Origin: a virus
Length of the DNA stretch: 59,660 nucleotides
Virus record (IMG/VR): IMGVR_UViG_3300050821_008385
Location: 1-59,660 of that record
Reading direction: 5' to 3' (one strand)
Of this stretch, positions 3,970 to 52,629 are shown in pieces. The position numbers and the translations under genes are program-made. Numbering within the stretch: position 1 is the first letter of the stretch; every line of letters starts with the position of its first letter. The notes below the pieces were generated by a model that worked only from the letters and a program-made list of their open reading frames with translations, searched no databases and was not told the DNA's origin.

Positions 3970-3982
3970 TGCAACTGTCGCA
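3970..3982. promoter_or_regulatory. Dyad operator copy, TGCAACTGTCGCA
   Basis: A 13-bp dyad between the divergent minus operon (start 3925) and the plus early operon (first gene 4117). It matches the recurring element TGCGAY-N-RTYGCA at 12 of 13 positions. In the plus direction the flanking TGCAAC...TCGCAACTTT resembles the promoter-operator at 17145-17172 read on its own strand. I infer a repressor site serving one or both directions. Confidence 0.6.
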
Positions 3983-4116
3983 ACTTTTCTCTTGCACCTA
4001 AATCTAGCGGGTGTCAATCTCCGCGTCGCGAGCCGCTGCCGGGAACGCCCCCATGAACCCCTGTTCCTGGTTCCGGTCTTCGGATTTGGCGGCTCGCAAT
4101 AGGAGAAAACGCGGAG

Positions 4117-4284
4117 ATGAGCGTCAAGCCGTCAAAATTGCCAATGCCACGGAAGCTGTGGCGGCAATTCAAACAGGCGCTGGAGGCGAACGGCGTCTCT
4201 ATAGAAGAACGCCAGATCGTCTTTATCGACGAGGTCGGCGACGAATACACCGCGTTCGCGCTGCTTTACGTAAAAGAAGAATGA
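4117..4284 (+). CDS. 55-residue early protein
   Basis: ATG at 4117 with AGGAG 11 bases upstream and a second GGAG close to the start. The basic N-terminus (PRKLWRQFKQALEANG) is followed by an acidic, hydrophobic C-terminal half with a beta-alternating look. The stop TGA overlaps the next ATG. It is the first gene of the long rightward operon downstream of the operator at 3970. Family unknown. Confidence 0.65.
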   Translation: MSVKPSKLPMPRKLWRQFKQALEANGVSIEERQIVFIDEVGDEYTAFALLYVKEE

Positions 4285-4628
4285 TGACCGACGCTGCCGA
4301 AAAGGCTCTTGCCGAACGCGCCCGCCAGGTCGCGCGCTACCATCGGGCGAAAGCCGCCGAATGGCGCGAGGCGATTGCCGACCGGCCGGGACTAACGGTC
4401 TTACGCCGCAACATTAACCACTGTGCCGACGCCAACGAAATGATCTTGCTCGCCGATTGGGCTGCAAAGGTGTTCCCAACCTATAAACACCTTATCCTCG
4501 GCCTGATCGCCAAACGTATCCAGACGCTCCGCCGCCGCGCCGGCCTCCTCGAGATCGACGATGCACTGCCGGGCGACGAGCGCGACGCTGACGATTGTTT
4601 CCAGCGGTGTAAGGAGATACTGACGTGA
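4281..4628 (+). CDS. Hypothetical helical protein
   Basis: 115 residues from ATG 4281 (a second ATG follows at once). It is almost entirely helical and Ala/Arg-rich, with a hydrophobic centre (ILLADWAAKVFPTYKHLILGL) and a negatively charged C-terminal part containing one Cys. The stop shares bases with the GTG start of the next gene. No family recognised. Confidence 0.65.
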   Translation: MMTDAAEKALAERARQVARYHRAKAAEWREAIADRPGLTVLRRNINHCADANEMILLADWAAKVFPTYKHLILGLIAKRIQTLRRRAGLLEIDDALPGDERDADDCFQRCKEILT

Positions 4629-4843
4629 CGCCTGAACCCATGCAAGCCCACGTCCCGTGGGACAACCTCGCCAACGCGCCCGCCGCGTGGATCGCCACAA
4701 TCAAACGCGAACTCAAACGCGAACGCGCCGCACTCGCGCTCGCCCGCAGCCTGTTCCGCAAAATGGCGCACCACCCCGACAACACAGTGCGCGAGCTGGC
4801 GATTAACGCGCTGCGGGACATCCACAAACTGATGAGCGAATAA
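4625..4843 (+). CDS. 72-residue helical protein
   Basis: Starts at GTG 4625 overlapping the previous stop (GTGA), so it is translationally coupled. It contains a basic heptad-like helix (IKRELKRERAALALARS) and a second helix ending in DIHKLMSE. No family recognised. The next gene begins immediately after its stop. Confidence 0.6.
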   Translation: MTPEPMQAHVPWDNLANAPAAWIATIKRELKRERAALALARSLFRKMAHHPDNTVRELAINALRDIHKLMSE

Positions 4844-5023
4844 ATGGAAATCGGTGAACCCATCAAGCGCTGGGAAGTGATCCCGCTCTCCGAGCCGCAG
4901 TACGCCCGCGTCGTCAGCATCGAGCGGACATCCGAAGAGCCGCCCCGATGGGCTCGCCTGACACGCGGCCTTCAAGACAAAACCCTCAGTCATTTACGCG
5001 AAACTTATAGGCTGACACCATGA
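4844..5023 (+). CDS. 59-residue early protein
   Basis: Begins with ATG directly after the previous TAA and ends in an ATGA overlap with the nuclease gene. The N-terminus MEIGEPIKRWEVIPLSEP resembles a short acidic/proline motif seen in many small phage proteins. The remainder is Arg/Glu-rich. Coding use matches its neighbours. Function unknown. Confidence 0.55.
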   Translation: MEIGEPIKRWEVIPLSEPQYARVVSIERTSEEPPRWARLTRGLQDKTLSHLRETYRLTP

Positions 5024-6093
5024 GCGCCCCCTTTAACCCTGCGTGGATTTCTATCAAGGAAATCACGCGCCTCTTTGCGGAGTCGCGGCAAAAAGAATTC
5101 TCGGGCCACGATCGCAACAACACGGTCGGCGCGTCAGAAATCGGCGGCTGCGAACGACGCACTTGGTTCACCAAAAACGACGCTCCGCGCGACCCTGCCT
5201 TTGTCGAGCGCTACGGCGCTCTCGAACGCGGCAACTTGATCGAGCGGCACTGGGTCGTCCCGGCAATGGCCGAACACTTCACCTTGCCTGTTCAGCTGCT
5301 CTACGCGGGCGATGAACAGCGCACCCTCGTCGACGGCTACCTGTCAGCCACCTCCGACGCGCTCCTCGTCAATGTCCCGCACGACTGTCTGGCCTGGCTC
5401 GGTGTCGAGGACATCGGTCCCAGCGAGTGCCTGGGCGTGGAAATCAAATCCATCGACCCTCGCGTCTCGGTCAAAGAAGCCAAAGCCGCACACGAATTCC
5501 AAACCCAAGTGCAGATGGGGCTGCTGCGCGCGGTAACCGCAGATCATCCCGACTACACCCTCATCGCCTATGTCGACGCGTCGTTTGTCGACGAGGTCAC
5601 CGAATTCGCCGTGAAGTTCGACCCGGCAATCTATGCCGCGGCACAGGATCGCGCGCGACGCATCATGATCGCATCCGATGCTTCATCTTTGCGTCCGGAA
5701 GGCAAGATGGCCGGCGGACGCGAGTGCGGCTACTGCCCATGGGCCTCACACTGCGCTCACGTCACCGTCAGCAATATGCCGCCCGACGAACGGCCGGCGC
5801 TCAGCGACAGTGATGTCGAAGCGCTGTTCCTGTTTGTCCGCCAGGAACGCAACCTCGATGCCGAGATCGCCCAGCTAACCCTGGAGCAAGCCGAATACAA
5901 GCAAGGGATTAAGGAATTCCTCAGCAAACATGGGATCAGGCGCTACCATAACGACGCGTTCTCGGTCGCGTGGTCTTCCACAAAACCAAGAATCACAGTC
6001 GATATCGCCGCAGCGGAAGCCGCCGGGATCGATCTCCAACCCTATCGCAAGGAAGGCGACCCGAGCGACCGCTTAAGTATCAAGGTGAAATGA
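5020..6093 (+). CDS. Cas4/RecB-like PD-(D/E)XK exonuclease with probable Fe-S cluster
   Basis: 357 residues. The nuclease core is visible in order: GASEIGGCERRTWF (about 37-50), ERGNLIERHW (69-78), TSDALL with D113, GVEIKS with E141 and K143, and a QTQVQMGLL helix at 161-169 like the RecB Q-motif. Cysteines C44, C236, C239 and C245 (CGYCPWASHC) have the spacing expected of the Cas4/AddB-type 4Fe-4S site. Such phage enzymes degrade or resect duplex ends in recombination-dependent replication. The C-terminal 100 residues are helical. It is encoded in the early operon, ATGA-coupled to the preceding small gene. Confidence 0.85.
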   Translation: MSAPFNPAWISIKEITRLFAESRQKEFSGHDRNNTVGASEIGGCERRTWFTKNDAPRDPAFVERYGALERGNLIERHWVVPAMAEHFTLPVQLLYAGDEQRTLVDGYLSATSDALLVNVPHDCLAWLGVEDIGPSECLGVEIKSIDPRVSVKEAKAAHEFQTQVQMGLLRAVTADHPDYTLIAYVDASFVDEVTEFAVKFDPAIYAAAQDRARRIMIASDASSLRPEGKMAGGRECGYCPWASHCAHVTVSNMPPDERPALSDSDVEALFLFVRQERNLDAEIAQLTLEQAEYKQGIKEFLSKHGIRRYHNDAFSVAWSSTKPRITVDIAAAEAAGIDLQPYRKEGDPSDRLSIKVK

Positions 6094-6114
6094 TCCAATT
6101 CCAGGAGCCAACCT

Positions 6115-6564
6115 ATGCCCTCATGTTACGTCTTTGACCTCGACGGCACCATCGCCAATCTCGACCATCGGCTTCACTACATCCAAAAGGAAGCCAAAGA
6201 CTGGCGCGGTTTCTTCGCAGCGGTGGGTGACGACTCGCCCATCGAGCCCATTGTTACCCTCATGCGCAATCTTTACGCCGGTCCTGATGGCTATCCCCAT
6301 CTCGTCATCTTGAGTGGTCGCTCCTCCGAATGCCGCGACACTACGCGGGACTGGCTGCAACAGCACAATGTTCCCTATCACTATATCTATATGCGCGCCG
6401 AGGGCGATCACCGTCCTGACTTTGAAACTAAAAAAGACATGCTCGATCTGATGCTAAAAGACAACTACATCCCGTTGCTCTTTGTCGATGACCGCAACCA
6501 GGTAGTCGACCTATGGCGCGCGCTTGGATACACCTGTCTCCAATGCGCTAAAGGCGACTTCTAA
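6115..6564 (+). CDS. HAD-superfamily phosphatase (polynucleotide-kinase phosphatase-like)
   Basis: 149 residues. Motif I is FDLDGT (7-12) with the two catalytic aspartates, motif II is LSGRSS, a lysine lies in FETKKDM, and motif IV is FVDDRNQVVDLW. Domain size and the SGR-type motif II match the 3'-phosphatase half of T4 Pnk, without the kinase half. It probably removes 3' phosphates from nucleic acid or acts on nucleotides. ATG with a CCAGGAG Shine-Dalgarno. Confidence 0.85.
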   Translation: MPSCYVFDLDGTIANLDHRLHYIQKEAKDWRGFFAAVGDDSPIEPIVTLMRNLYAGPDGYPHLVILSGRSSECRDTTRDWLQQHNVPYHYIYMRAEGDHRPDFETKKDMLDLMLKDNYIPLLFVDDRNQVVDLWRALGYTCLQCAKGDF

Positions 6565-6565
6565 A

Positions 6566-9148: not shown

Positions 9149-9312
9149 GCGAGGACGCCGCATTCGACCCGATGCTCGACTGCTATCTGTCGTGGGAGGC
9201 CGCGATCACCGAAATGCGGCGACGGCATCTCGCGGGCGAACCGATCGGCCAGCTCTGGCGCGAAGCTGAAGAGCGACAGCGGACCCAAAAGGACAGGGAC
9301 AACAAGGAATGA
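9145..9312 (+). CDS. 55-residue charged protein
   Basis: GTG 9145 overlapping the upstream TGA; the stop overlaps the methyltransferase ATG. The N-terminus is acidic and aromatic (FDPMLDCYLSWEAAI), followed by a helix dense in Arg, Glu and Gln. Not recognised. Coupling suggests that it is made together with the methyltransferase. Confidence 0.55.
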   Translation: MSEDAAFDPMLDCYLSWEAAITEMRRRHLAGEPIGQLWREAEERQRTQKDRDNKE

Positions 9313-10646
9313 GCACAGTTCGCCTGCTGCCCGGCGACTGTATCAAGCTGATGCGCGCTATGTCCGCCGCGAGCATCGATGCAATCGTGACCGACACCCC
9401 CTACGGTCTCGGCTTTATGGGGAAAGATTGGGACTCACCGGGCGGTGTTGGCGATTTCCCGATGCGGCGCGCCGATGCCATCAACACCGTCAATACAGGG
9501 GTGACCCGACAAGGCGGTCGACAACGGAGTTGCGAAGATTTTACCAAGCGACAGCTACGTGACGCGCGCTCTTATGGCGAGTGGTGCCGTGAATGGGCGA
9601 GCGAAGCCTATCGCGTCCTGAAACCCGGCGCGCACCTCGTCGCCTTTGGTGGCACCCGCACTTATCACCGGCTTGTGTGCGCGATCGAGGATGCGGGATT
9701 TGAAATCCGCGACACCATCGCTTGGCTGTACGGCACAGGATTCCCGAAATCACACGATGTCAGCAAGGCGATAGATAAATCGCTCGGCGCTCAACGCGAG
9801 AAGGTAAAGCCACGCAGCATCATTGGGCATCAAAGGAATATCGGTAATCACCGACCCTGGATGGATGACCCCGAACATCTTACGAATAGCGACCGGCCGG
9901 AATCTGCTGCTGCTGCTGCTGCCTGGGCTGGCTTTGGCACATCGCTCAAGCCGGCCTTTGAGCCGATCGTCCTCGCGCGCAAGCCGCTGATCGGCACCGT
10001 GGCAGAGAACGTGCTGCAACACGGCACGGGGGCGATCAACATCGATGGGGGCCGGATCGAGTGCATTGATAAAACACCGTTTCCAGTCGGCTCCACAAGC
10101 GCAGACGGCTCAATCAAGACTGGATTGCACAGCAAGCCTCGCGGGGGTGACGAGAATGAAACCGGCCGCTGGCCCGCCAATGTCGCCCATGACGACAGCG
10201 ACGAAGTGCTGGCGGCGTTTCCCGATAGTGCGGGGCAGCTCTACGACCGCCCGCAACTTCCAAAGAAAATCAATGGTATTTACGGCGATTTGCCAGCGCT
10301 TGCTCGGGGCGATACCGGCTCGGCAGCACGTTTCTTCTTTTCGGCAAAAGCCGACAGCGAAGACCGATGGGGTAGCAAGCACCCCACCGTCAAGCCGGTC
10401 GCACTCATCCGCTGGCTGATGCGCCTCGTCACGCCACCGAGCGGCACCGTGCTAGACCCGTTCGCGGGCAGCGGCACTGCAGGCGTAGCGGCGCTCGCCG
10501 AAGGCTTTGACGCCGTATTGATCGAGCGCGAGCCCGAATATATCGCTGATATCGAGGCGCGTCTTGCCTACTACCGCGGCGAAGGCGGTCATTCACTCGC
10601 ACAGAAAAACCGCAGCAAGCGCCAATCGCCAGGGACGCTGCTCTAA
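9309..10646 (+). CDS. DNA methyltransferase, beta-class amino-methylating (N6-adenine or N4-cytosine)
   Basis: 445 residues. Catalytic motif IV DTPY at 29-32 (a DPPY variant) precedes the AdoMet motif I DPFAGSGT at 383-390, the order of the beta class (CcrM, phage and type II/III enzymes). The region between is the likely target-recognition part, with a Ser/Ala-rich insertion near residues 200-208. No restriction partner is next to it, so it is probably an orphan enzyme that protects phage DNA or marks it. Its neighbour encodes a PAPS-reductase-like protein, which raises the possibility of a wider DNA-modification unit. Confidence 0.88.
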   Translation: MSTVRLLPGDCIKLMRAMSAASIDAIVTDTPYGLGFMGKDWDSPGGVGDFPMRRADAINTVNTGVTRQGGRQRSCEDFTKRQLRDARSYGEWCREWASEAYRVLKPGAHLVAFGGTRTYHRLVCAIEDAGFEIRDTIAWLYGTGFPKSHDVSKAIDKSLGAQREKVKPRSIIGHQRNIGNHRPWMDDPEHLTNSDRPESAAAAAAWAGFGTSLKPAFEPIVLARKPLIGTVAENVLQHGTGAINIDGGRIECIDKTPFPVGSTSADGSIKTGLHSKPRGGDENETGRWPANVAHDDSDEVLAAFPDSAGQLYDRPQLPKKINGIYGDLPALARGDTGSAARFFFSAKADSEDRWGSKHPTVKPVALIRWLMRLVTPPSGTVLDPFAGSGTAGVAALAEGFDAVLIEREPEYIADIEARLAYYRGEGGHSLAQKNRSKRQSPGTLL

Positions 10647-10667: not shown

Positions 10668-11606
10668 GTGGAGAGAACCGATAAGCCGCCGCGCACCCCA
10701 CGGGCTCCGTGGGACGAGTTCGACGAGCACGTCCTGCGGCTCTGCGCCGAACACTACTACTCGCAACCGCAGACCGCACTCCTACTCGACCGCTCGACCC
10801 CCGCCGTGGCGCAACGCGCCTCGGCACTCGGCATCAAGTTCAACGCGCGTTTAGTGCGCAAACCATTCCCTGAGGAGCGTGCCGCCATGAACCACATCGC
10901 CGCGATATCAGGCGGCAAGGATTCCACCGCGATGGCGCTGCGCCTCGCCGAACTTCACCCGGACATCGACTTCCGCTGGATATGCACGCCAACCGGCAAC
11001 GAACCCGATGTCTGGTTTGCCCACATGCGCACTCTCGCCGACAAGATCGGACCCATCATCCCCATCATCGGCGGGTCTTTAGATGGCATGATCCGCCAGT
11101 GGAACGCTCTGCCCAACTGGCGGCAACGCTGGTGCACACGCGCCCTAAAGATCGAGCCGTTCGCAGCCTACTTAGCCCAAAACACACCAGCGCGCGTCTA
11201 TGTCGGCCTGCGTGCCGACGAGGAAGAACGCTCGGGCGGCGACTATCACCGCGATATCCCCGGCACCGAAATGATCTTCCCCCTGCGCGAATGGGGGTGG
11301 GGCATCGAAGACGTTCGCAACTACCTCCGCACAAAAGAACAAACCATCCCCGACCGAACCGACTGCAAGCTGTGCTTCTTCCAGCGGCTGATCGAGTGGT
11401 GGGACCTCTGGCACGACGATCCCGCCGGGTATGCCGAAGGCGAAGCCTACGAGACGCTGACCGGAAACACCTTCCGCTCGCCCGGACGCGACGCCTGGCC
11501 GACAAAGCTGGCCGACCTCCGCGCTGAATTTGAACGCGGACGCATTCCGCAAGGCGCACAACGCGACATGCTCAAATCCATGCAGTGCCGCGTCTGCCGG
11601 ATGTAA
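10668..11606 (+). CDS. HTH domain fused to PAPS-reductase-like (PP-loop) protein
   Basis: 312 residues from GTG 10668 (GGAAAGGA upstream). Residues 15-60 look like a SANT/GcrA-type helix-turn-helix (WDEFDEHVLRLC, AVAQRASALGIKF). Residues 74-312 are a PP-loop enzyme with SGGKDS at 81-86 and Cys pairs CKLC and CRVC in the C-terminal half. The PP-loop part has its own ATG at 10887 (M74) with a perfectly spaced GAGGAG, so two products are possible. Related proteins reduce PAPS or help make phosphorothioate or 7-deazaguanine modifications. The substrate here is unknown. It lies directly after the DNA methyltransferase. Confidence 0.82.
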   Translation: MERTDKPPRTPRAPWDEFDEHVLRLCAEHYYSQPQTALLLDRSTPAVAQRASALGIKFNARLVRKPFPEERAAMNHIAAISGGKDSTAMALRLAELHPDIDFRWICTPTGNEPDVWFAHMRTLADKIGPIIPIIGGSLDGMIRQWNALPNWRQRWCTRALKIEPFAAYLAQNTPARVYVGLRADEEERSGGDYHRDIPGTEMIFPLREWGWGIEDVRNYLRTKEQTIPDRTDCKLCFFQRLIEWWDLWHDDPAGYAEGEAYETLTGNTFRSPGRDAWPTKLADLRAEFERGRIPQGAQRDMLKSMQCRVCRM

Positions 11607-15624: not shown

Positions 15625-16128
15625 TCACGAGACGCGGCCAGCGGCCATGTCGTTCGTTTCTTCTATCTTCGTGGCCAGCGTGGCTAGGACGCCGGCAATC
15701 TCGTTCCGTCGCTCGATCAATAGCTCCGCAATCTCTTCCCAGCGGTAAACCGCTATACCGCGTGAGTAGTAACTATCAGGATCGGCTCCGGCCGGTACGC
15801 AACCGGGATACAGCAGATACAGTGCCGCGCCGCGCGGGTCACCTTGAACATAAGATGACAGATCAGGATAGCGCGCCATGATCTTACTCAAACGTTTTAA
15901 CGCGCCAGTCTCACGATCAGCGGTCGGATAACGTTTTCCGGTATGTGACGAATACCAATAGCACTTGCCTGTGTTTTCATCCCGTTCTACACCGCCATTA
16001 TCGACGCCACATTCCAATTCATGCCAGCGGTGTAATTGCATCGCGATACGTCGCAATGCCCATGCATCGTCATCGCTTACTCCAAGCTTCTTGATGCGGT
16101 CGATCATGTGGAAAGTGTCTCGGTTCAT
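15625..16128 (-). CDS. Conserved phage protein (LHRWHELECG family)
   Basis: 167 residues from ATG 16128 (GGAG 9 bases upstream). The features LRRIAMQLHRWHELECG, ERDENTGKCYW, YPTADRETGALKRL and YVQGDPRG belong to a very common phage protein of unknown function. A promoter with an embedded operator lies about 60-90 bases upstream (16188-16215). The gene is leftward and separate from the next minus unit. Confidence 0.75.
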   Translation of the reverse strand: MNRDTFHMIDRIKKLGVSDDDAWALRRIAMQLHRWHELECGVDNGGVERDENTGKCYWYSSHTGKRYPTADRETGALKRLSKIMARYPDLSSYVQGDPRGAALYLLYPGCVPAGADPDSYYSRGIAVYRWEEIAELLIERRNEIAGVLATLATKIEETNDMAAGRVS

Positions 16129-16187: not shown

Positions 16188-16215
16188 AAGATAACGAAAG
16201 GTGCGATAGTTGCAA
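16188..16215 (-). promoter_or_regulatory. Leftward promoter with dyad operator over the -35
   Basis: On the minus strand TTGCAA (16215-16210), 16-base spacer and TATCTT (16193-16188). The dyad TGCGATAGTTGCA at 16202-16214 covers the -35 box. About 40 bases around it are nearly the same as at 17145-17172, so this is a repeated promoter-operator module. It faces the gene at 16128. Confidence 0.65.
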
Positions 16216-16275: not shown

Positions 16276-16707
16276 TTAAACCGATTCACGCAAGCGCTTG
16301 GTTTCGTCAACCGCGTTCCGATAAAGCATGCACAAATGCGACACTTCGTCGATATCCGCCGAGCAATTGTCACCATATGAGTCGCACGCTTCCGACCATA
16401 CACCATCGGGATCGTCGGGCATCAACTCAACCGCCATGTGAAGCTTCCAACGCTTTGATACACCTGCAAGTTCATGCAATTCCCTGCGATAAGCCAAGGT
16501 GCAGGGACGCCGTGACAATTCTTCACGTTGATGCGCAACCTGTCGCTCGTAAACTTCCTGCGGTGTAACACCAGGTTTGAGTTTCGGGCCAAGTTTCCAA
16601 CCAAAACCTTGATTGATCAGAACCGTTCCATCACTCATGTAACGCTTGGCTTTCACCGTGAAATACACAGTGCCAATCTCTTTACCGTGTGCGCTGATCC
16701 TCGCCAT
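16276..16707 (-). CDS. Hypothetical protein
   Basis: 143 residues. Begins with a beta-rich part (IGTVYFTVKAKRYM) and continues as a mixed helix region with several Cys (SEACDSYGDNCSAD, HLCMLY). No family recognised. Third gene of the leftward unit that begins at 17117. Confidence 0.6.
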   Translation of the reverse strand: MARISAHGKEIGTVYFTVKAKRYMSDGTVLINQGFGWKLGPKLKPGVTPQEVYERQVAHQREELSRRPCTLAYRRELHELAGVSKRWKLHMAVELMPDDPDGVWSEACDSYGDNCSADIDEVSHLCMLYRNAVDETKRLRESV

Positions 16708-16750
16708 GTCACTCGCTTCCTAGCTATACCGCGCGCGTATCGCGTGGCGT

Positions 16751-16909
16751 TTAGTCCTGATTTGCATATAAAAAGTCGATAGCTTCCTGAATTTCCTGCG
16801 GCGTGTTCTGCCGGTTCTTCTCGCTGTCGCGAAAGTCTGAAGTTTCATCTAGATAGAGATATTCGCTTGCCGCATTTATTACAATCTCAAGCGCTTCTTG
16901 CTTTGTCAT
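16751..16909 (-). CDS. 52-residue acidic protein
   Basis: ATG 16909 with GGGAG 7 bases upstream. Acidic helical protein with EYLYLDETSDF and a C-terminal IQEAIDFLYANQD helix. Not recognised. It lies between its operon partners with small gaps. Confidence 0.6.
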   Translation of the reverse strand: MTKQEALEIVINAASEYLYLDETSDFRDSEKNRQNTPQEIQEAIDFLYANQD

Positions 16910-16925
16910 TGTTATGCTCCCTTAG

Positions 16926-17117
16926 CTATGCCGCGCGTGTATCGCGCCGCTGTTCGTCAAAGTACCAAGCTTGCGTTGCCCGGATCGGCCTTAAACCAAG
17001 CGCGCGCCGAGCGCGATTAACTGCGCGCAATCGCGACCACAACAGATCAGCAAGGAACCAATTGTCCGCCATCTCGGCTTCTACAATCTCGCGAGCGATC
17101 TGTTCTACGGTTGTCAT
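16926..17117 (-). CDS. 63-residue helical protein
   Basis: ATG with CGGAGGAAACGAG upstream, a strong ribosome site. Helical, with a basic centre (RLRAVNRARRALGLR). First gene after the promoter-operator at 17145-17172. Not recognised. Confidence 0.6.
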   Translation of the reverse strand: MTTVEQIAREIVEAEMADNWFLADLLWSRLRAVNRARRALGLRPIRATQAWYFDEQRRDTRAA

Positions 17118-17144: not shown

Positions 17145-17172
17145 AAGATAATGAAAGTTGCGATGGTTGCAA
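17145..17172 (-). promoter_or_regulatory. Leftward promoter with dyad operator
   Basis: TTGCAA (17172-17167), 16-base spacer and TATCTT (17150-17145) on the minus strand. Dyad TGCGATGGTTGCA at 17159-17171 overlaps the -35. It reads into 17117-16276. The arrangement is the same as at 16188, supporting a common regulator. Confidence 0.68.
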
Positions 17173-17210: not shown

Positions 17211-17228
17211 TATAATGCGATGATTGCA
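17211..17228 (+). promoter_or_regulatory. Rightward -10 box fused to a dyad operator
   Basis: TATAAT at 17211-17216 shares its last T with the dyad TGCGATGATTGCA (17216-17228). A bound repressor would cover the start point of transcription. The unit read is 17251 onwards. No convincing -35 is seen. Confidence 0.55.
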
Positions 17229-17250: not shown

Positions 17251-17757
17251 ATGCCAGACGGCGAAAACCGACATGGCGATGATAACCTGCTGAAGCCAAC
17301 ACGCGATCAGCAGGGACGTTGGCTCCCTGGGGTAATGCCGGAAGGTGCAAACCGATTTCCGCCCGGAGTGAGCGGTAATCCCGGCGGGAAACTTGGCCAA
17401 TATCATGACGCTATGAAGCTTGCGCGTAGCAAATCGGTAGCGGCCGTGCAGCGCATGGTGGAACTGGCGGAACTGGACAACGTCGATCAGGACGGCAAGC
17501 TTGCACCGCTATCACGGCGCACGGACGCGCGCGTAGCGGCGCATGCGACGGAATGGCTGTGGTCGATTGCGTGGGGTAAGACGCAACCTAAGGCGCTCGA
17601 TGAAGCGCCGGGCGTGACGATCGAGCAGCGTCGCGACGAAGCTATGGCAACATTGCAAGCCGCGTTCGAGCGCGTGTTGCAGGCGAGCAAGGCGCAAGCG
17701 GCTCGCGAGGCAGCTGAGCCTTCGACCGCAGTCGTTGTGACGATCGATCAGAAGTAG
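17251..17757 (+). CDS. DUF5681-type protein
   Basis: 168 residues from ATG 17251; a TTG at 17224 would add nine residues and would be almost leaderless. The N-terminal half carries the PPGVSGNPGG motif typical of DUF5681, preceded by a Trp-Leu-Pro-Gly segment. The rest is a helical Ala-rich region. DUF5681 proteins are common in phages and sometimes lie beside terminase genes. A small-terminase or DNA-binding role is possible but unproven. Expression probably depends on the operator at 17216. Confidence 0.7.
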   Translation: MPDGENRHGDDNLLKPTRDQQGRWLPGVMPEGANRFPPGVSGNPGGKLGQYHDAMKLARSKSVAAVQRMVELAELDNVDQDGKLAPLSRRTDARVAAHATEWLWSIAWGKTQPKALDEAPGVTIEQRRDEAMATLQAAFERVLQASKAQAAREAAEPSTAVVVTIDQK

Positions 17758-17768
17758 CGATAGTCGCA
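17756..17768. promoter_or_regulatory. Dyad operator copy at the 3' end of the DUF5681 gene
   Basis: AGCGATAGTCGCA overlaps the stop codon of the previous gene. It matches the consensus at 12 of 13 positions. It is the first of four copies between 17756 and 18211. Confidence 0.45.
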
Positions 17769-18033: not shown

Positions 18034-18046
18034 TGCGACTATCGCA
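18034..18046. promoter_or_regulatory. Dyad operator copy, TGCGACTATCGCA
   Basis: Matches TGCGAY-N-RTYGCA fully. First copy of a closely spaced pair in the control region. Confidence 0.55.
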
Positions 18047-18092: not shown

Positions 18093-18105
18093 TGCGACAG
18101 TCGCC
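18093..18105. promoter_or_regulatory. Dyad operator copy, TGCGACAGTCGCC
   Basis: One mismatch to the consensus at the last base. 59 bases from the preceding copy, both within the imperfect ~60-bp repeat. Confidence 0.55.
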
Positions 18106-18198: not shown

Positions 18199-18211
18199 TG
18201 CGACTGTTGCA
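18199..18211. promoter_or_regulatory. Dyad operator copy, TGCGACTGTTGCA
   Basis: Full match to the consensus, about 130 bases before the first gene of the 18331 operon. Confidence 0.55.
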
Positions 18212-20404: not shown

Positions 20405-20773
20405 ATGCCGTTAGCGCGGATTGTGATTGAGGAGGTTGGGGACATGGCGATCCCGGAGCGGCGGTGGATGTGTGAGATGGAGGTTGGCAATTTGGGGATG
20501 TTTAAGACGCATCACATGCAGGGGCCTGATATTGAAGACATTTTGCGGCAGGTGATGGGGGTTTACCGGGAGGCGATGGGGATCAAGCCGACTGCGGCGA
20601 CTGCGGCGGCGGGATTGCGAAAGGATGCGGCGGAGGAGGTCGCATCGTTGCGGCGGGATGCGGAGGATTTGGGGATTGTGGTTGACGGCCGGTGGGGCGC
20701 GGGTCGGTTGCAGGACGAGATAAACGCGAAATTGAAGGAGGGTGGCGATGTCGGTACGGCTGCTGCGGATTGA
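20405..20773 (+). CDS. Hypothetical protein, tandem paralogue 1
   Basis: 122 residues from ATG 20405, seven bases after a GAGGAGG. The N-terminal half (RIVIEEVGD, ERRWMCEMEV, DIEDILRQVMG) parallels the next protein (RLLRIEDLG, DQRWVAELDM, SLDDMLKAIG), so the two are a diverged duplication. The C-terminal part is a charged helix. Function unknown. Confidence 0.6.
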   Translation: MPLARIVIEEVGDMAIPERRWMCEMEVGNLGMFKTHHMQGPDIEDILRQVMGVYREAMGIKPTAATAAAGLRKDAAEEVASLRRDAEDLGIVVDGRWGAGRLQDEINAKLKEGGDVGTAAAD

Positions 20774-21128
20774 GGATTTGGGATTGACGGTAGCGGCTGA
20801 CCAGCGGTGGGTCGCCGAGTTGGATATGTATGAAGGTCTGGAAGCGCGAACGGTCGAGTTGCGGGCGGCGAGTTTGGACGACATGTTGAAGGCGATCGGC
20901 GAGGCGTGTGCGCCACCGCCGGTTGAAGAGGTTGTGCCGGTGGTGCCTGTTGCGTCGGTTGCGCCCGTTGCGGCGGCGCCTGCTGTTGCACCTGCTGTTG
21001 CGCCGCCTTCGCCGGCACCGTCGATTCCGCGGCCTGCGCCCACTGGAGCGACTGGGGCTACAGGTTCTTCTGCTGGTTCGACTGGTCCGACTGGTCCGAC
21101 TGGAGCAACTGGAGCAACTGGCGCGTGA
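20748..21128 (+). CDS. Tandem paralogue 2 with a collagen-like tail
   Basis: 126 residues from ATG 20748 (AAGGAGG upstream). The first 55 residues pair with the previous protein. After a Pro/Val/Ala linker the C-terminus has about eight Gly-x-Thr type triplets (TGATGATG, then TGPTGPTG), a short collagen-like stretch able to trimerise. This suggests a surface or virion location. Confidence 0.6.
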   Translation: MSVRLLRIEDLGLTVAADQRWVAELDMYEGLEARTVELRAASLDDMLKAIGEACAPPPVEEVVPVVPVASVAPVAAAPAVAPAVAPPSPAPSIPRPAPTGATGATGSSAGSTGPTGPTGATGATGA

Positions 21129-26631: not shown

Positions 26632-27591
26632 ATGGCACGGTCATCGAGCGTAGCCCTGCCGACCGAGTTGTCGGCTGCGGATCAGGCGCAGATGGCGGAA
26701 ATGCGGCGAGCCGATTCGGCACCGCACGAACCCGAACCGCCGCCGCCGGCAGCCCCGCTTGAGGAGCCGCCGGTCGATCAAGGGCAGCCGCTTGAGGAGT
26801 CGCCGTCGGAGCGTCCGCCGCCGGGTTATGTTCCGCACGGCGCTTTGAACGAGGAGCGCACGCGCCGGCAGCAGAGTGAGGAGCGGCTGCGCGAGCTTGA
26901 GCGACAGAATACGCTTCTTCAAGAGCGCACCAACCTGATCTTGCAGTCGGTGCAGCAGCAGGCGCAGCAACCGGCGCAGCCGCAGGCCGAAATTCCGACA
27001 ATCGACAAGGACCCGGTGGGGTATCTGGTCGGGACGATCCAGCGGCAGGGCGAAGAAATTCAACGGCTATTGCAGGATTCGACACAGCGGCAGCAGGCGC
27101 AGCAGCAGACGCAGCAAACGCTGAGCCTGGCGCAGTTGGCGCAAGTCAAGGAGAACGAATTCAAGGCGGTAACGCCAGATTACGAGCCGGCGCTGGCTTA
27201 TCTGATGCAGCAGCGGCAGGCCGAGTTGCAGGCGGTCGGTATTCGCGATCCGATGCAGCGCCAGCAAATTTTGTCGAACGAGTATCTGACTGTGGCGCAG
27301 ATTGCGTTGGGCGATAATCGCAACCCGGCGGAGGCGATTTACGAAATTGCTAAGGTGCGCGGCTACAAGCCGGCGAACGGCGCTGCTGCGCCGCAAGAGG
27401 TTATTCCGCCGGTCACCGCGGCGGAACGGGTCGCCAACGTCGCGGCGGGGCAGCAGCAGTCGCGCTCGTTAAGCAGCGTGCGCGGCAGTGCGCCGGTCCC
27501 CTTGACGGCGCAGCGTCTCATTGAGATGTCGCCGGCCGAGTTTGATGCGGCTATTTCGACGCCGGAAGGACGGGCATTGCTTGGCGTCTAG
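26632..27591 (+). CDS. Probable scaffolding protein
   Basis: 319 residues, Pro/Glu-rich start, then a long coiled-coil helix rich in Gln (about residues 70-170) and a C-terminal charged helix ending in a short hydrophobic tail. Low-complexity, helical and placed directly before the coat gene, which is the usual scaffold position. It would build the prohead and leave before packaging. No protease is seen. Confidence 0.7.
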   Translation: MARSSSVALPTELSAADQAQMAEMRRADSAPHEPEPPPPAAPLEEPPVDQGQPLEESPSERPPPGYVPHGALNEERTRRQQSEERLRELERQNTLLQERTNLILQSVQQQAQQPAQPQAEIPTIDKDPVGYLVGTIQRQGEEIQRLLQDSTQRQQAQQQTQQTLSLAQLAQVKENEFKAVTPDYEPALAYLMQQRQAELQAVGIRDPMQRQQILSNEYLTVAQIALGDNRNPAEAIYEIAKVRGYKPANGAAAPQEVIPPVTAAERVANVAAGQQQSRSLSSVRGSAPVPLTAQRLIEMSPAEFDAAISTPEGRALLGV

Positions 27592-33258: not shown

Positions 33259-34785
33259 ATGAGCGATCCCACTTTTCTACCTATCGCTGATTTTCTCCCG
33301 GATCTTCCTTCGTATCCGGCACCGGGATCGGCGAATATTCGCAACGTCTATCCGCGGACAAAGGTTAGCTATGGTGCGGTAGGTTCGCCGATGGCGCAGT
33401 TTAGCGCGCTGAATAAGCGCTGTCAGGGTGCGGCGGGATATCGCGACAGCGGCGGGAATGTTTTCCTTTTCGCGGGGGACGCCAACGATCTTTATGCGCT
33501 GAATGTTTCGGTTAGCGACTGGGCTAATGTTTCCAGTGCGCCGGGTGCTTATAACACAACAGAAGAGCAGATGTGGGAGTTTGTTTACTTTAATGGTGAT
33601 GTGATTGCGACAAATTTTGCCGATCCTATGCAATATTACAACATCAATACGCCGCCAGCCGGCTTTGCCGACTTGCCGGGGACACCGCCGAAGGCGCGGC
33701 ATTTGGCGGTTGTCAAGAATTCCTTTGTGGTGGCGGGGAATACATTTGATGCGGTAAACGGCAACATGCCGCAGCGGGTGTGGTGGTGTGACGCGGGGAA
33801 TGCGCATAGCTGGTCGACGCCGGGGACGACCGCGGCGGCGGCGGCGCAGGCTGGTGCGGTTGATCTGCTGGGGGACGGGGGCTGGGTGATGGGGTTTGCG
33901 CCGAGTTTGGCGAACGCTGACGCTGTAGTGTTTCAGCAATACGCGGTACGGCGGATGGTTTATGCTGGGCCTCCTGTCGTATTTGACTTCCTGCCGGCAG
34001 AGAATGCGCGGGGAACCGATGCGTCGCGTAGTATCGTGGTGCAGGGCGGTATAGCCTATTATTTCGGACAAGACGGGTTTTATGCTTTTGACGGCTCGGC
34101 TTCACAGCCGATCGGTGTCGACAAGGTCGACAAGACGGTTTTGAACGATATCGATCTTGGCAATCTCGGCCGGATGGTTGGTGCGGCGTCGCCTTTTAAT
34201 AATCTGATCTTGTGGGCGTACCCCTCAAAGGGGAACAACGGGGTTTGCAACAGGATTCTGGTCTATAACTGGGTTCTGCAAAAGTTCGATCTGCTCGATG
34301 TTCCATGTGAAACATTGGTCAGGCTTCTTGGCCTAGGTTACAACCTTGATGAGTTGTATACTCTTCTTGGTTATTCAATCGATAATGTGCCTGCCTCACT
34401 GGATAGCCCGATCTGGACGGGTGGTCGGCTATCGCTGGGGCTGTTTGGGACTGATCATCGCATGGCGTTTTTTAGCGGTGACCCGCTCCAGGCGACGGTG
34501 GAGACGAGTGAGATGGCTCCCTACCCTGGCAGGCGGATGTTTGTGCGTAATACGCGCCCGCTGATTGATGGGGTCAACTCGTCGTGCACGGTGGCGATCG
34601 GGCATCGTGAGCGGCAGCAGGACGCGGTGACGTTTGCACAGCCGACGACACTCAACTCGATGGGGTTGTGCCCTGCGCGGGCGTCGGGGCGGTATATCAC
34701 GACGCGGGTGGTGATCCCGTCTTCAAATACCTGGACAAATATTTCCGGTGTCGAGGTTGAGGGTGATCCGATGGGGACACGCTGA
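33259..34785 (+). CDS. Tail hub / packaged-DNA stabilisation protein, P22 gp10-like
   Basis: 508 residues. N-terminus with NIRNVYPRTKVSYGAVGSP, then GYRDSGGNVFLFAGDANDLYAL, RHLAVVKNSFVVAGN and a beta-propeller-like series, with the YYFGQDGFYAFDG strand typical of gp10. The end folds beta-sheets. Binds the gp4-type ring and carries the tailspikes. Confidence 0.78.
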   Translation: MSDPTFLPIADFLPDLPSYPAPGSANIRNVYPRTKVSYGAVGSPMAQFSALNKRCQGAAGYRDSGGNVFLFAGDANDLYALNVSVSDWANVSSAPGAYNTTEEQMWEFVYFNGDVIATNFADPMQYYNINTPPAGFADLPGTPPKARHLAVVKNSFVVAGNTFDAVNGNMPQRVWWCDAGNAHSWSTPGTTAAAAAQAGAVDLLGDGGWVMGFAPSLANADAVVFQQYAVRRMVYAGPPVVFDFLPAENARGTDASRSIVVQGGIAYYFGQDGFYAFDGSASQPIGVDKVDKTVLNDIDLGNLGRMVGAASPFNNLILWAYPSKGNNGVCNRILVYNWVLQKFDLLDVPCETLVRLLGLGYNLDELYTLLGYSIDNVPASLDSPIWTGGRLSLGLFGTDHRMAFFSGDPLQATVETSEMAPYPGRRMFVRNTRPLIDGVNSSCTVAIGHRERQQDAVTFAQPTTLNSMGLCPARASGRYITTRVVIPSSNTWTNISGVEVEGDPMGTR

Positions 34786-35162
34786 TGGCGGCGATCGTTG
34801 TTGCCAGTGGGCATGCTAAGCCACCGCCGCCGGTCGATTGGTCGCCGCCGGCCAAGATGGATCAGGCGGCGTCGCGGACTTGGGTGCGACTGATCTCGGA
34901 AGCAGTCGGCAATGTGATCTATGGAAATCTCAACGCGGTTACCGATACCACGCTAGTTGCCGGCGGTATTCATACCACTGTTAGTTGGCCGAGAATTAAT
35001 CCATACTGTGGATTGTTTTTTTGTCCACTGACGGCGAACGCGGCGGCGGAAATGGGTAACGGCACACTCTGGGTGTCGGCGCTGACCAACGGGTCGGCGC
35101 AGTTGACGCACGCGAACAATGGTCAGACGGACAGGCAGTATCGTGTTCTGATCATCGGTTAG
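34785..35162 (+). CDS. Small virion-region protein
   Basis: 125 residues, Pro-rich N-terminus then a beta-rich domain with several Thr-Asn. Overlaps the hub stop. Possibly a tail-tip or fibre-base protein. Not recognised. Confidence 0.5.
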   Translation: MAAIVVASGHAKPPPPVDWSPPAKMDQAASRTWVRLISEAVGNVIYGNLNAVTDTTLVAGGIHTTVSWPRINPYCGLFFCPLTANAAAEMGNGTLWVSALTNGSAQLTHANNGQTDRQYRVLIIG

Positions 35163-43162: not shown

Positions 43163-43205
43163 CATATAAGCTCATTCAAAAGGCTTGTCTAGTGCGACAG
43201 TTGCA
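43163..43205 (-). promoter_or_regulatory. Leftward promoter with dyad operator
   Basis: On the minus strand TAGACA (43191-43186), 17-base spacer and TATATG (43168-43163). The dyad TGCGACAGTTGCA (43193-43205) abuts the -35. It would drive 43155-42684 from within the rightward late region. Confidence 0.55.
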
Positions 43206-43225: not shown

Positions 43226-43867
43226 ATACCACGACCAACACGTGATCTGACGGGGCAGCGGTTTGGACGGCTAGTTGCGCTCAGTCGCATAGAGGCGACC
43301 GGGGGATCATCTCGGTGGAACTGCCAATGTGATTGTGGAGCGATAGTTGTTGTGAAGGCCAATAAGTTGCTTGTTGGAGACACCGCATCATGTGGGTGTC
43401 TGCGTAAGGAGGTTACAGGCCTTAAGAGGAAAACTCATGGTGCTTCAAGAACAAGATTATATAAAGCCTGGCTTAAAATGATGGAGCGGTGTTTCGATCC
43501 TAATAATGAGGCGTACGATAGGTACGCTGGAAGAGGTATTACGGTTTGCGAGCGATGGAAAAAGTTTGAAAATTTTCGTGATGATTTGGGAGAACCGCCA
43601 GACCCGAAATTGACGCTAGAGAGAATTGATAATGATGCTGGATATTCACCAGATAATTGCTGTTGGGCGACAAGATCGGAGCAAAATAGAAATCGTCGTA
43701 ATGCGCGGCGTATTATGATAAATGGAACATGTGTATTTAATATATGCGAAGTACCGGAGCTTGTGGGGACAAGCGTATCGAGTGTATCAAGAAGGATTAA
43801 GGCTAAGGTGCCTATTATTATTTTTAATAAGGTGTTCCGAGTAGAGGAGTATTCGGATCATGGCTGA
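43226..43867 (+). CDS. HNH-family homing-type endonuclease, apparently ATA-started
   Basis: 213 residues if read from ATA 43226. GGGAGG lies five bases before it and the frame opens with PRPTRDLTGQRFGRL, the normal beginning of this family, followed by CQCDCG and CGCL zinc pairs. The first usual start in frame is GTG 43352, after the first two Cys-rich residues. The nuclease part has RLYKAWLKMMERC, YAGRGITVCERW, LERIDNDAGYSPDNCCWAT and a DNA-binding tail. AT content is above that of its neighbours, so it was probably acquired recently. Either a rare start is used or the gene lost its ATG. Confidence 0.7.
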   Translation: MPRPTRDLTGQRFGRLVALSRIEATGGSSRWNCQCDCGAIVVVKANKLLVGDTASCGCLRKEVTGLKRKTHGASRTRLYKAWLKMMERCFDPNNEAYDRYAGRGITVCERWKKFENFRDDLGEPPDPKLTLERIDNDAGYSPDNCCWATRSEQNRNRRNARRIMINGTCVFNICEVPELVGTSVSSVSRRIKAKVPIIIFNKVFRVEEYSDHG

Positions 43868-50375: not shown

Positions 50376-50381
50376 AGGCCA

Positions 50382-50600
50382 ATGATCACCATTGCGATTA
50401 ACATTCTATGGTTTCTCATCTTTCTCTGCATTCTTGTAGGGATCGGTTGGCTGGTGATTTGGGTGCTGGGTCAGCTTGGCATCCCTGTCCCGCCAATGGT
50501 GATGAAGATCGCGTTGCTGGTGATCGGATTGCTGTGCCTTATCTGGTTCCTGTCGATGATTGCAGGCGGCGGCGGGATGATGACACCGATGTGGCGCTGA
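50382..50600 (+). CDS. Two-pass membrane protein
   Basis: 72 residues with two long hydrophobic helices (LWFLIFLCILVGIGWLVIW; IALLVIGLLCLIWFLSMIA). Compatible with a holin or antiholin. Stop overlaps the next ATG. Confidence 0.55.
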   Translation: MITIAINILWFLIFLCILVGIGWLVIWVLGQLGIPVPPMVMKIALLVIGLLCLIWFLSMIAGGGGMMTPMWR

Positions 50601-50953
50601 TGAGTTTCGACATCCACGTCTACCTGCACAGCGAAGATTCCCAACTGACGGCAATTTCCAACAATGTGACGCAAATCCTTGCGTTGCTGACTGAAGGAGC
50701 GACCCTAATGACGGCAATGGACGACAAGCTGACCGAGCTGACGGCTGATGTTGCGGCGGAGGGCACCGTGATCGACAGTGCGGTCAAAGCGCTTAATGGG
50801 ATTCAGCAGATGATTACCGACGCGGTTGCTGCGGCGACGGCGGCTGGCGCTACGCCGGAACAGCTTCAGTCGGTGACCGATCTCGCGGCGGCGGTAACTG
50901 CCAAGAGCGCAGAGCTTGCTGCGGCGATCCCGGCACCGCCGCCGACGCCATAA
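50600..50953 (+). CDS. Helical Ala-rich protein
   Basis: 117 residues, coiled-coil rich in Ala, Thr and Glu, with a Pro-rich tail. Layout resembles the gene at 47666 (both with ALTT/ELTADV-like heptads and a Pro tail). Not recognised. Confidence 0.5.
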   Translation: MSFDIHVYLHSEDSQLTAISNNVTQILALLTEGATLMTAMDDKLTELTADVAAEGTVIDSAVKALNGIQQMITDAVAAATAAGATPEQLQSVTDLAAAVTAKSAELAAAIPAPPPTP

Positions 50954-51075
50954 TGGACGCCGATCGCGACGCTCGCGGGCGGTTTATCTCGGCCGCGCAC
51001 AAGCACGGGCACTGGTGGGCGTCGGGGCTCGTCGTCGCGGTCGTGTTGATACTGATCGCGATCTACGCGTGGTAG
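50953..51075 (+). CDS. 40-residue membrane peptide
   Basis: ATG overlaps the previous stop. Charged His/Arg-rich N-terminus then one membrane helix (LVVAVVLILIAIYAW). Not recognised. Confidence 0.5.
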   Translation: MDADRDARGRFISAAHKHGHWWASGLVVAVVLILIAIYAW

Positions 51076-51096
51076 CGACGGCGTGCCAGCAAGAGC

Positions 51097-51384
51097 ATGG
51101 ACAGCCACGACCGTCTGATCTGGGCGGCGTTCGCTGCAGTGGCCGTGCTGGTCACGATTACCGGGCTGGTGGTCTTTGGCAGCATCTTTTTTGCCCCCGG
51201 CTCCGACGCCACGGTCAAGCAGATGATCGAGGGCCGGATCATCTCGCGTGCGCTCGTGCTCTTTCTGATCGTGCCGACAATCGCGCTGCTCTGCCTGCAG
51301 GACAGGATCAGCGGGGAGGCTGCTCTGGCTGCGCTCTCGGCAATTGCCGGTTATATCCTCGGCGGCAGCACCCCTGGTCAGTAA
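51097..51384 (+). CDS. Multi-pass small membrane protein
   Basis: 95 residues; two or three hydrophobic segments (LIWAAFAAVAVLVTITGLVVF; LVLFLIVPTIALLCL; ALSAIAGYILGG). A holin-like size. Last rightward gene before the leftward operon. Confidence 0.5.
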   Translation: MDSHDRLIWAAFAAVAVLVTITGLVVFGSIFFAPGSDATVKQMIEGRIISRALVLFLIVPTIALLCLQDRISGEAALAALSAIAGYILGGSTPGQ

Positions 51385-51395
51385 CCTTAGTTTAT

Positions 51396-51620
51396 TCATT
51401 TTTCAGGGGCCTTTTTGCGGATGGCAACAGCGATTTCCGGCATCCCGGAATGACTGGCTATTGCCGCGCACCGCTCGCGTTCCTCGGTTACGGCTTCGGT
51501 GATAGCGAACTCAATCCGGTCAGCAGTAAAGTGCCATTCTTGATCTACTTCTGAGTTACCGTTACCAGCGCCCGTTACCAAATCATCGGCGACCTCCTCT
51601 GCCCTCTCGCGCGGGGTCAT
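51396..51620 (-). CDS. MTPRERAE-family small protein, copy 1
   Basis: 74 residues. It begins MTPRERAE as does the upstream gene, so these are tandem paralogues. Rest is helical with an acidic middle (DRIEFAITEAVTEERERC). Function unknown. Confidence 0.55.
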   Translation of the reverse strand: MTPRERAEEVADDLVTGAGNGNSEVDQEWHFTADRIEFAITEAVTEERERCAAIASHSGMPEIAVAIRKKAPEK

Positions 51621-51883
51621 CAGATGCCTGCCTTTCTGCGGAGGGCGGCGAGAGCGGCTGAAGCAAGGAACCCGTATCCGCTTTTTGTGCTGTCGCAGCC
51701 GTATGTCATCTCCTCGTCCATTTTCCCGATAGCCTGCGCCATCACCTCAATCGTCGCCTCGTCATCCGCCAGCAGCGCGCGAACGTGCTCGGTGAGTACT
51801 TTTTCAAGGCGCTCTTTAACCTCTAGGCGCGTCATGGTGTACCATTCTTGGGCTTCGGCCTCTGCCCTCTCGCGTGGGGTCAT
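51620..51883 (-). CDS. MTPRERAE-family small protein, copy 2
   Basis: 87 residues. N-terminus MTPRERAE, then an EEWY-like helix and a segment IEVMAQAIGKMD. Its centre recalls the EEMAQAIHADI segment in the protein at 52083, and both end in AALAALRKK-type helices. Function unknown. Confidence 0.55.
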   Translation of the reverse strand: MTPRERAEAEAQEWYTMTRLEVKERLEKVLTEHVRALLADDEATIEVMAQAIGKMDEEMTYGCDSTKSGYGFLASAALAALRRKAGI

Positions 51884-52086
51884 TGCTTGGGGGGTTCTTT
51901 CGTAATAGCGCCTTCAAAACACACACCTCTGGCTTTGGGAGGCACTGCGTTTGCGTAAAATCGAGGGTCTATGGACCATGCTGACGCCTCGTCGGCAGCC
52001 AGCGCCTCTAGGCACCGTTCTTTTGTCTCGAACGGTCCGTGAATGCCAATATTCGTGCTGAAGATGAACAGGAAAAACCATGTCAT
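51880..52086 (-). CDS. Hypothetical protein with hydrophobic start
   Basis: 68 residues; TWFFLFIFSTNIGI resembles an anchor or signal segment, then ETKERCLEALAADE and several Cys and Pro. Unknown. Overlaps both neighbours slightly. Confidence 0.5.
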   Translation of the reverse strand: MTWFFLFIFSTNIGIHGPFETKERCLEALAADEASAWSIDPRFYANAVPPKARGVCFEGAITKEPPKQ

Positions 52087-52442
52087 CCAAGGGCCTTTTT
52101 GCGGAGGGCGGCGAGAGCGGCGCAGGCAGTTTTTCGATAATCATCTTGTGTTTTTGGAGTCAGCGCTTGCCATGCTAGCGGCTTCATTGCGGTGAGGTCG
52201 CGGGCAGCGTTTTCCATAATGTCTGCATGAATTGCTTGGGCCATCTCCTCAATAGTTTCGACGTAATCCGCCACTAGCGCGCGGCCGTGCTCGGCGGCGT
52301 CAATCAAATCGAACTGCAATGAACCAATGGCATCGGCGCATTGCCGGTAAATCGGGTCGAGCAGATGACGCGAGCCAAGTTCTCGTTTCAGCTCGTCAAG
52401 CTGTTCTATCGTCCAGCGAGGCTTAATCTCGCGGGCGTTCAT
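52083..52442 (-). CDS. CADAIGSLQFDLIDA family protein (paralogue B)
   Basis: 119 residues from ATG 52442. Shares LKREL and the RQCADAIGSLQFDLIDA segment with the 3566-3925 protein. The second half differs and carries the EEMAQAI and AALAALRKK stretches also found in 51620-51883. This looks like a mosaic of small-gene modules. Function unknown. Confidence 0.65.
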   Translation of the reverse strand: MNAREIKPRWTIEQLDELKRELGSRHLLDPIYRQCADAIGSLQFDLIDAAEHGRALVADYVETIEEMAQAIHADIMENAARDLTAMKPLAWQALTPKTQDDYRKTACAALAALRKKALG

Positions 52443-52525
52443 CCGACAATCCGATCGATAATGCCCTCGCTGCACAGCACAATAAGACCGATGGCAGCGA
52501 TAGCGAGCCAGTTGAGCCAGGTCAT
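52439..52525 (-). CDS. 28-residue membrane peptide
   Basis: ATG 52525 with GGAGG five bases upstream. A single membrane helix (WLNWLAIAAIGLIVLCS) then a polar end. Stop overlaps the next ATG. First gene of the leftward operon that faces the three-operator region. Confidence 0.6.
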   Translation of the reverse strand: MTWLNWLAIAAIGLIVLCSEGIIDRIVG

Positions 52526-52541
52526 TGAATCCTCCATAAGT

Positions 52542-52629
52542 CGCGACAGTCGCATCTTTGTGTGCACCCCGCAAGCCAAAAGATGCGCTTGTCGCACAAA
52601 ACCTCCCGTGCTAGGTTGCGACCATCGCG
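52542..52629. promoter_or_regulatory. Divergent control region with three dyad operators
   Basis: CGCGACAGTCGCA (52542-52554), TGCGCTTGTCGCA (52584-52596) and TGCGACCATCGCG (52617-52629). They separate the leftward membrane-peptide operon from the rightward XRE gene. This is the densest operator group in the genome and has the layout of a repressor-controlled switch, with autoregulation possible. Promoter boxes are not clear. Confidence 0.6.

Follow-up and report, generated by a model that had tools for sequence, protein, structure and literature searches.

A phage-wide set of symmetric 13-bp dyads as candidate operators of a small XRE protein

A complete phage record of about 59.6 kb carries twelve symmetric 13-bp dyads. 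They are probably operators at which a single homodimeric repressor encoded by the phage acts, and the likeliest candidate is the 72-aa XRE protein encoded at 52646-52864. Their statistics, a held-out matrix and their placement at divergent gene junctions give good support to an operator set that spans the phage. Since they nearly always lie between genes, at the starts of transcription units, with the densest group beside the sole recognisable regulator gene, a single small protein probably controls a large part of the phage. By analogy, the system is best read as the regulon of a Cro-sized repressor, similar to the stoperators of L5 or the operators of P1, but symmetric and promoter-linked.

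All twelve dyads listed in the initial annotation lie at their stated positions in the window (the whole stretch of DNA analysed, 59,660 nucleotides; Table 1). The symmetric search pattern, TGCRAYNRTYGCA (13 bp), occurs seven times exactly, versus 0.08-0.2 copies expected in Markov sequences of orders 1, 3 and 5, and 14 times with at most one mismatch, versus about three expected from the same models; a reversed-pattern control gives 0-1 matches. Intergenic DNA makes up 9.4% of the window according to our gene calls, yet all seven exact dyads are intergenic (binomial p ~7e-8 against this background), as are 12 of the 14 copies with at most one mismatch (p ~4e-11), the other two, at 27310 and 58208, each lying within a gene. 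Matches with exactly two mismatches are intergenic at chance level (4/34). When a matrix derived solely from the dyads adjoining the XRE gene (52542, 52584 and 52617) was scanned over the rest of the genome, intergenic dyads took ranks 1-7 and nine dyads were among the top 11 matches; at the rank-9 threshold there are nine matches, versus 0.9 in shuffled sequence. Equally good copies are thus not common either inside genes or in shuffles, and a chance origin is rejected by the Markov models together with the reversed pattern and the held-out matrix. Neither enumeration of dyads with exact halves nor dyad mining without restrictions was informative, since GC-rich palindromes dominate the results. 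The excess of sites and their concentration in intergenic and promoter DNA are what is generally expected of a phage operator regulon.

Table 1. Dyads, candidate regulator gene and neighbouring leftward genes (positions in the window)
Feature	Position	Strand	Context
Dyad TGCAACTGTCGCA	3970..3982		Divergent junction: 3566-3925 gene (-) on one side, early rightward genes (from 4117) on the other
Dyad TGCGATAGTTGCA	16202..16214		Over the -35 (TTGCAA) of leftward promoter-like TTGCAA-16-TATCTT; centre ~-27
Dyad TGCGATGGTTGCA	17159..17171		Promoter-dyad cassette as at 16202; heads leftward operon 17117-16276
Dyad TGCGATGATTGCA	17216..17228		First T is last base of TATAAT box before DUF5681-like gene; centre ~-1
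Dyad AGCGATAGTCGCA	17756..17768		Overlaps stop codon of 17254-17757 gene
Dyad TGCGACTATCGCA, perfect	18034..18046		Within 570-bp non-coding region before late genes
Dyad TGCGACAGTCGCC	18093..18105		Same 570-bp non-coding region; in near-duplication (60 bp) with 18034
Dyad TGCGACTGTTGCA	18199..18211		Just upstream of promoter-like TTGCGC-17-TATGCT; centre ~-42
Dyad TGCGACAGTTGCA	43193..43205		Between leftward 43155-42877 gene and HNH endonuclease gene; centre ~-43 of leftward promoter-like pair TAGACA-17-TATATG
Dyad CGCGACAGTCGCA	52542..52554		Divergent junction adjoining XRE gene
Dyad TGCGCTTGTCGCA	52584..52596		Contains -35 (TTGTCG) of putative XRE promoter; centre ~-34
Dyad TGCGACCATCGCG	52617..52629		First T is last base of -10 (TAGGTT) of putative XRE promoter; centre ~-1
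XRE/HTH_3 protein, 72 aa, candidate regulator	52646..52864	+	HTH_3 match
Leftward accessory gene	15625..16128	-	Headed by dyad 16202; preceded by terminator-like hairpin, 16254-16233
Leftward accessory operon, three small genes	16276..17117	-	Headed by dyad 17159
Leftward gene, 119 aa	3566..3925	-	Paralogue of 52083-52442 gene
Leftward gene run, including 52083-52442 paralogue	51396..52526	-	Downstream of dyads 52542/52584/52617

The twelve dyads group into about seven intergenic neighbourhoods with irregular spacing, and four of the five divergent gene junctions bear them. The original description of every dyad as intergenic or at a gene junction has to be qualified for 17756, which overlaps a stop codon. 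A duplicated promoter-dyad cassette of about 35 bp accounts for the dyads at both 16202 and 17159, and those at 18034 and 18093 lie in a near-duplication, so that the independent sites perhaps number nine or ten. Good promoter-like box scores were found near 16202, 17159, 17216, 52584/52617, 18199 and 43193, and two dyad-promoter geometries each recur at separate promoters. The proposal that most dyads touch promoter boxes is consistent with these sites, but weaker than that for intergenic placement: no promoter-like sequence was found near 18034 or 18093, and the DNA shows no excess of consensus promoters over shuffled sequence. A search with the cassette as a pattern hit a single terminator, which follows a tRNA-like end in an unrelated contig and which we take as chance.

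The candidate regulator belongs to the XRE/HTH_3 family, scoring 24.2 bits against the Pfam HTH_3 gathering cut-off of 23, and is the only HTH match among the 89 ORFs of the window. Its promoter region holds three dyads, the densest group in the genome; as in phage operator regulons generally, a DNA-binding gene thus has sites in its own control region. The AlphaFold2 model contains the HTH (pLDDT 76), and its best fold match is Aca2 (7vjo, TM 0.76), with C.Kpn2I, P2 C and P22 C2 also among the matches; the Foldseek E-values are only about 0.01, and the relation in sequence to solved repressors is weak. No relatives of the protein were found among viral contigs, phages and plasmids, and tblastn against the phage collection gave zero matches at E 0.01. 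The nearest relative of the phage (G002, 60% portal identity) has an XRE homologue (41% identity over 56 aa) whose operon promoter likewise bears a single perfect dyad, of another sequence, TTGTAAAATTTACAA. Judged by its sequence and position, the XRE protein is the best-supported choice of regulator, and the attribution of repression to it in the initial annotation gains from these observations, but no second genome was found in which protein and dyad occur, and vary, together. The regulator could instead be an HTH protein that has diverged beyond recognition by Pfam.

No relative found shares the regulon, in answer to the proposal that related phages be searched for the same dyad. Inheritance of the dyads in common with G002 was rejected, as that genome has no dyads comparable to those of the window; in Paracoccus phage KLEP18-1 and phage Mae-JY35 a dyad adjoins a regulator gene. 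A 143-aa product of the 16276-17117 operon is 90% identical to a product of L158, where the homologous accessory genes have no dyad; the sites are therefore part of the phage's circuit, rather than belonging to the accessory genes themselves. The paralogues 3566-3925 and 52083-52442 each lie downstream of dyads. Neither the leftward products nor the DUF5681-like gene yielded much functional information.

Pairs of the related pattern TGCGATNATCGCA adjoin a P22-C2/LexA-like (XRE-S24) repressor in many temperate phages, mostly alphaproteobacterial, and this dyad class is frequent as a temperate-phage operator (55 contigs, versus three for a control pattern). As a by-product, our searches define an operator class shared by a large number of temperate phages. 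The window dyads share with these operators their length, one-base centre and TGCGA halves. In the CI systems, however, a repressor with a peptidase-like domain has its gene flanked by a pair of sites 32-36 bp apart and a third copy, and the window has neither that protein nor that layout: a profile of the family found nothing better in the window than the XRE gene, at E 0.05. Nor do the dyads fall in the family's sequence range, 11 of the 12 being within the lowest 6% of CI-operator scores (in a set itself selected by a similar pattern), and they prefer C/G at positions 6/8, with TTGCA halves occurring, where the CI consensus has T/A. These poor scores suggest, at the sequence level, that the regulator of the window dyads differs from the P22-C2/LexA-like repressors.

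The same comparison bears on an unlikely alternative, in which the repressor of the dyads comes in trans (the CI of a resident prophage, or an ancestral CI since lost) and the phage descends from a temperate ancestor, has become virulent and keeps the operators as relics. The similar dyads beside temperate-phage repressors fit this idea, as do the integrases or C-type repressors of the phage's relatives, and D29, a lytic L5-like derivative, kept its stoperators after losing its repressor (PMC5712189). The low CI-operator scores argue against it, however; relic sites would be expected to decay, yet seven are exact, and in the stretches examined CI operators were seen nowhere but close to the repressor locus. 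It is improbable that the phage instead exploits sites of a host chromosomal regulator, although there is a parallel in the virulent Caulobacter phage phiCbK, whose XRE factor TgrL has sites overlapping those of host XRE factors (PMC10688885): the densest dyad group adjoins the phage's own HTH gene, and dyad pairs in bacterial genomes are often beside prophage-type repressors. A role as RNA hairpins (terminators) or as replication, packaging or partition sites is very improbable. The 7-bp stem followed by T5 at 43193 suits a terminator, but it is the only good fit, and most dyads fold only weakly (-1 to -6 kcal/mol) and lack a T-run; three or four dyads do cluster in the non-coding region before the terminase genes, but the irregular spacing, the lack of a partition protein among the families listed by profile scans and the location of several dyads inside promoter-like sequences speak against such functions.

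Under the preferred reading, that of a phage-encoded repressor, the two TGCGA/TTGCA halves on either side of the one-base centre would each be bound by one subunit. RNA polymerase would be blocked at dyads that overlap a -35 (16202, 17159, 52584) and at those that follow a -10 (17216, 52617). Through its three sites the XRE protein would repress both its own promoter and the divergent leftward operon; the leftward accessory operons would be under similar control, as would the DUF5681-like gene, the early junction (3970) and the stretch ahead of the late genes. Activation is possible at 18199 and 43193, where the dyad lies just upstream of the -35 (centre ~-42), a position from which lambda-type repressors can activate as well. 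We infer the identity of the binding protein, its binding as a dimer, repression or activation at each site, and the timing during infection.

The record closes on itself through 35-nt identical ends, so that the absence of an integrase, already noted in the initial annotation, is genuine: the closed record has no match to PF00589 (tyrosine integrase) or PF00239 (serine recombinase), by which chromosomally integrating temperate phages are recognised, whereas G002 matches both. The window also has zero Rfam matches and zero tRNA genes. A wider reading, possible but doubtful, is that of an integrase-less and perhaps obligately lytic alphaproteobacterial phage in which one Cro-sized XRE protein acts genome-wide, repressing promoters whose core is overlapped by a dyad and activating the two with a dyad near -42, and in which new leftward accessory genes are recruited by the promoter-dyad cassette. 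The combination of about 12 symmetric promoter-linked operators, an integrase-less phage and a 72-aa HTH protein as sole visible regulator would offer a simple system for studying the use of a Cro-like protein in a phage without recognisable lysogeny genes, and the way in which newly gained genes come under phage control.

The best-known phage regulons with scattered repressor sites are those of P1 and the Cluster A mycobacteriophages. The P1 C1 repressor is one protein with many separate operators, in a phage independent of chromosomal integration, and the window is alike in its one candidate repressor, scattered sites and lack of dependence on integration. The P1 operators, however, are 17 bp long and asymmetric, and P1 has plasmid replication and partition genes, which were not seen in the window. 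Dyad-based autoregulation is typical of Aca2 and Cro-type autorepressors; Aca2, though, is longer (~118 aa), and its known role is autoregulation of anti-CRISPR operons and not control of a genome-wide set of sites. With phiCbK the phage shares a single XRE factor and the alphaproteobacterial setting, whereas TgrL was studied on host promoters and has a motif with one strong half-site (PMC10688885). The stoperators of Cluster A phages (L5/D29), about 24 per genome and mostly in one orientation, are asymmetric (GGTGGc/aTGTCAAG) and bound by a monomeric two-domain repressor (PMC5712189, PMC6550527, PMC9283540). Our sites resemble them in being putative repressor sites of about 13 bp spread genome-wide, mainly in intergenic DNA, with an operator at a promoter and further sites elsewhere, but are palindromic, number about 12 and are promoter-linked, with a candidate protein of 72 aa and a single HTH.

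All twelve copies of the 13-bp dyad that the initial annotation had proposed as a phage regulon were recovered where it had placed them, confirming that observation. The consensus TGCRAYNRTYGCA has seven exact matches in the window versus about 0.2 in Markov sequences, and 14 versus about three when up to one mismatch is allowed. Intergenic DNA makes up 9.4% of the window by our own gene calls, and the claimed intergenic placement holds for all seven exact matches and for 12 of the 14 near copies; two-mismatch copies are placed as chance predicts. Because the consensus was chosen after inspecting the sites, we repeated the test with held-out data, scanning the remainder of the window with a matrix built from only the three XRE-adjacent dyads. 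Intergenic dyads occupy ranks 1-7, and nine of the top 11 matches belong to the twelve; the result that the initial annotation had named as refuting, equally good copies common in genes or in shuffled sequence, was thus looked for and not found. The site count includes 16202 and 17159 (sites are named by start coordinate), which are copies of one cassette, TATTGCAACYATCGCAMCTTTCRTTATCTTATA, and 18034 and 18093, both within a 60-bp near-duplication.

Placement of dyads at divergent junctions and elsewhere in the window
Location	Coordinates	Dyad
Divergent junction	3925/4117	present
Divergent junction	17117/17254	present
Divergent junction	43155/43226	present
Divergent junction	52526/52646	present (more than one)
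Divergent junction (fifth)	54878/54948	none
Ahead of gene	16128	present
End of DUF5681-like gene		present
570-bp region ahead of late genes		present (more than one)

Most dyads had also been said to touch promoter boxes, and at six sites the geometries recur: the last base of the -10 box is the dyad's first T (17216, 52617), the -35 box is contained in the dyad (16202, 17159), or the dyad lies directly upstream of the -35 box, centred at -42 to -43 (18199, 43193). These promoters are consensus matches only, and region-wide scans gave no more matches than shuffled sequence, so the geometries are suggestive. Dyad 43193 adjoins an AT-rich HNH endonuclease gene (43352-43867, GC3 0.37), likely a recent insertion, whose frame continues upstream with no obvious ATG start.

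The record has identical 35-nt ends (1-35 and 59626-59660), and a glycine-rich frame spans their junction, so the record looks like a phage genome of 59,625 bp that is closed and probably complete. Its products include a P22-like portal, N4-gp56-type capsid, terminase, primase/helicase, RecE-like exonuclease, CcrM-like methyltransferase and ejection-type protein. As the initial annotation had noted for integrases, a family search of the window found neither tyrosine integrase nor serine recombinase; both are present in G002, its nearest relative (64 kb; the portals share 60% identity). Two distant relatives have alphaproteobacterial hosts (Rhizobium, Paracoccus); a similar host is thereby suggested, though not proven. 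The CcrM-like gene (9309-10646) adjoins a PAPS-reductase-like gene (10668-11606), possibly for DNA modification; a sulfotransferase-family gene lies at 57744-58514 (Pfam Sulfotransfer_3, E 8e-17), and the small ORF 20742-21128 has a collagen-like Gly-X-Thr repeat in its C-terminal part.

The dyads likely form a regulon, for which the 72-aa protein at 52646-52864 (+), proposed earlier as repressor, is a probable but unproven regulator. It matches HTH_3 above the Pfam cut-off, the sole HTH match among 89 ORFs. In its AlphaFold2 model (pLDDT 76) a long helix follows the HTH fold, and Aca2, C.Kpn2I and other XRE regulators match the model best, though with weak E-values. Related phages do carry a dyad at the regulator's promoter, its sequence differing each time: the operon of the XRE homologue in G002 (41% over 56 aa) has one perfect dyad, TTGTAAAATTTACAA, at its promoter region; in a Paracoccus phage, CATTTCAGAAATG adjoins the regulator gene; and in phage Mae-JY35 two operator-like pairs of ATACC-N5-GGTAT (four dyads, paired at 33639-33677 and 34850-34899) surround the C repressor and HTH genes. 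Among the related phages examined, only the window has its dyad spread genome-wide.

Dyad pairs at most 60 bp apart occur in 68 other viral contigs, and pairs spaced by 1-30 bp in 55 contigs versus three with a control dyad. In 33 of the 68, the pair is close to a repressor gene whose product belongs to a single XRE/LexA-like family related to P22 C2; a third copy is often found across that gene. Several alphaproteobacterial genomes have the same layout, which is found in Sphingomonas, Sphingobium, Novosphingobium, Paracoccus, Aureimonas and other bacteria, and this recurrence shows the dyad to be a naturally occurring type of operator. Across contigs L036-L103 the recurrent layout is two copies of TGCGATNATCGCA 32-36 bp apart and one across the repressor gene; Tannerellaceae MAG contigs (L111, L118, L124, L128, L137, L138) have repeated pairs, mostly spanning about 54 bp in total. 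A prophage repressor of this family could act in trans on the window dyads. However, 11 of the 12 window sites score in the lowest 6% of its operator set and, unlike that set, they prefer C/G at positions 6 and 8; the phage's own regulator is therefore favoured.

Contig L158 encodes a relative of the 16276-16707 product (90% identical) and another related to the beginning of the 16128 gene; the two appear to share a single operon, which has no dyads. Each window copy has its own promoter-like sequence with a dyad, and a hairpin resembling a terminator lies upstream of one of them. The control sites are therefore the window phage's own, and a plausible, though unproven, history is that accessory genes were gained and a promoter-dyad cassette added. 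The 90%-identical gene (L158 2960-3860) lies in an otherwise different contig, and we read its similarity as recent horizontal exchange. Two leftward paralogues, 3566-3925 (-) and 52083-52442 (-) (56% over 62 aa), are separated by about 11 kb on the circle, and each has dyads upstream.

P1 C1 follows a logic similar to that of the candidate regulon. An example of a small XRE regulator that is functional in a virulent phage of alphaproteobacteria is phiCbK TgrL (PMC10688885). The system working most like the window dyads is that of the L5/D29 stoperators (PMC5712189, PMC6550527, PMC9283540), but stoperators are asymmetric and monomer-bound, so we do not class the window dyads among them. We regard the dyad set as a variation on an already known type of system.
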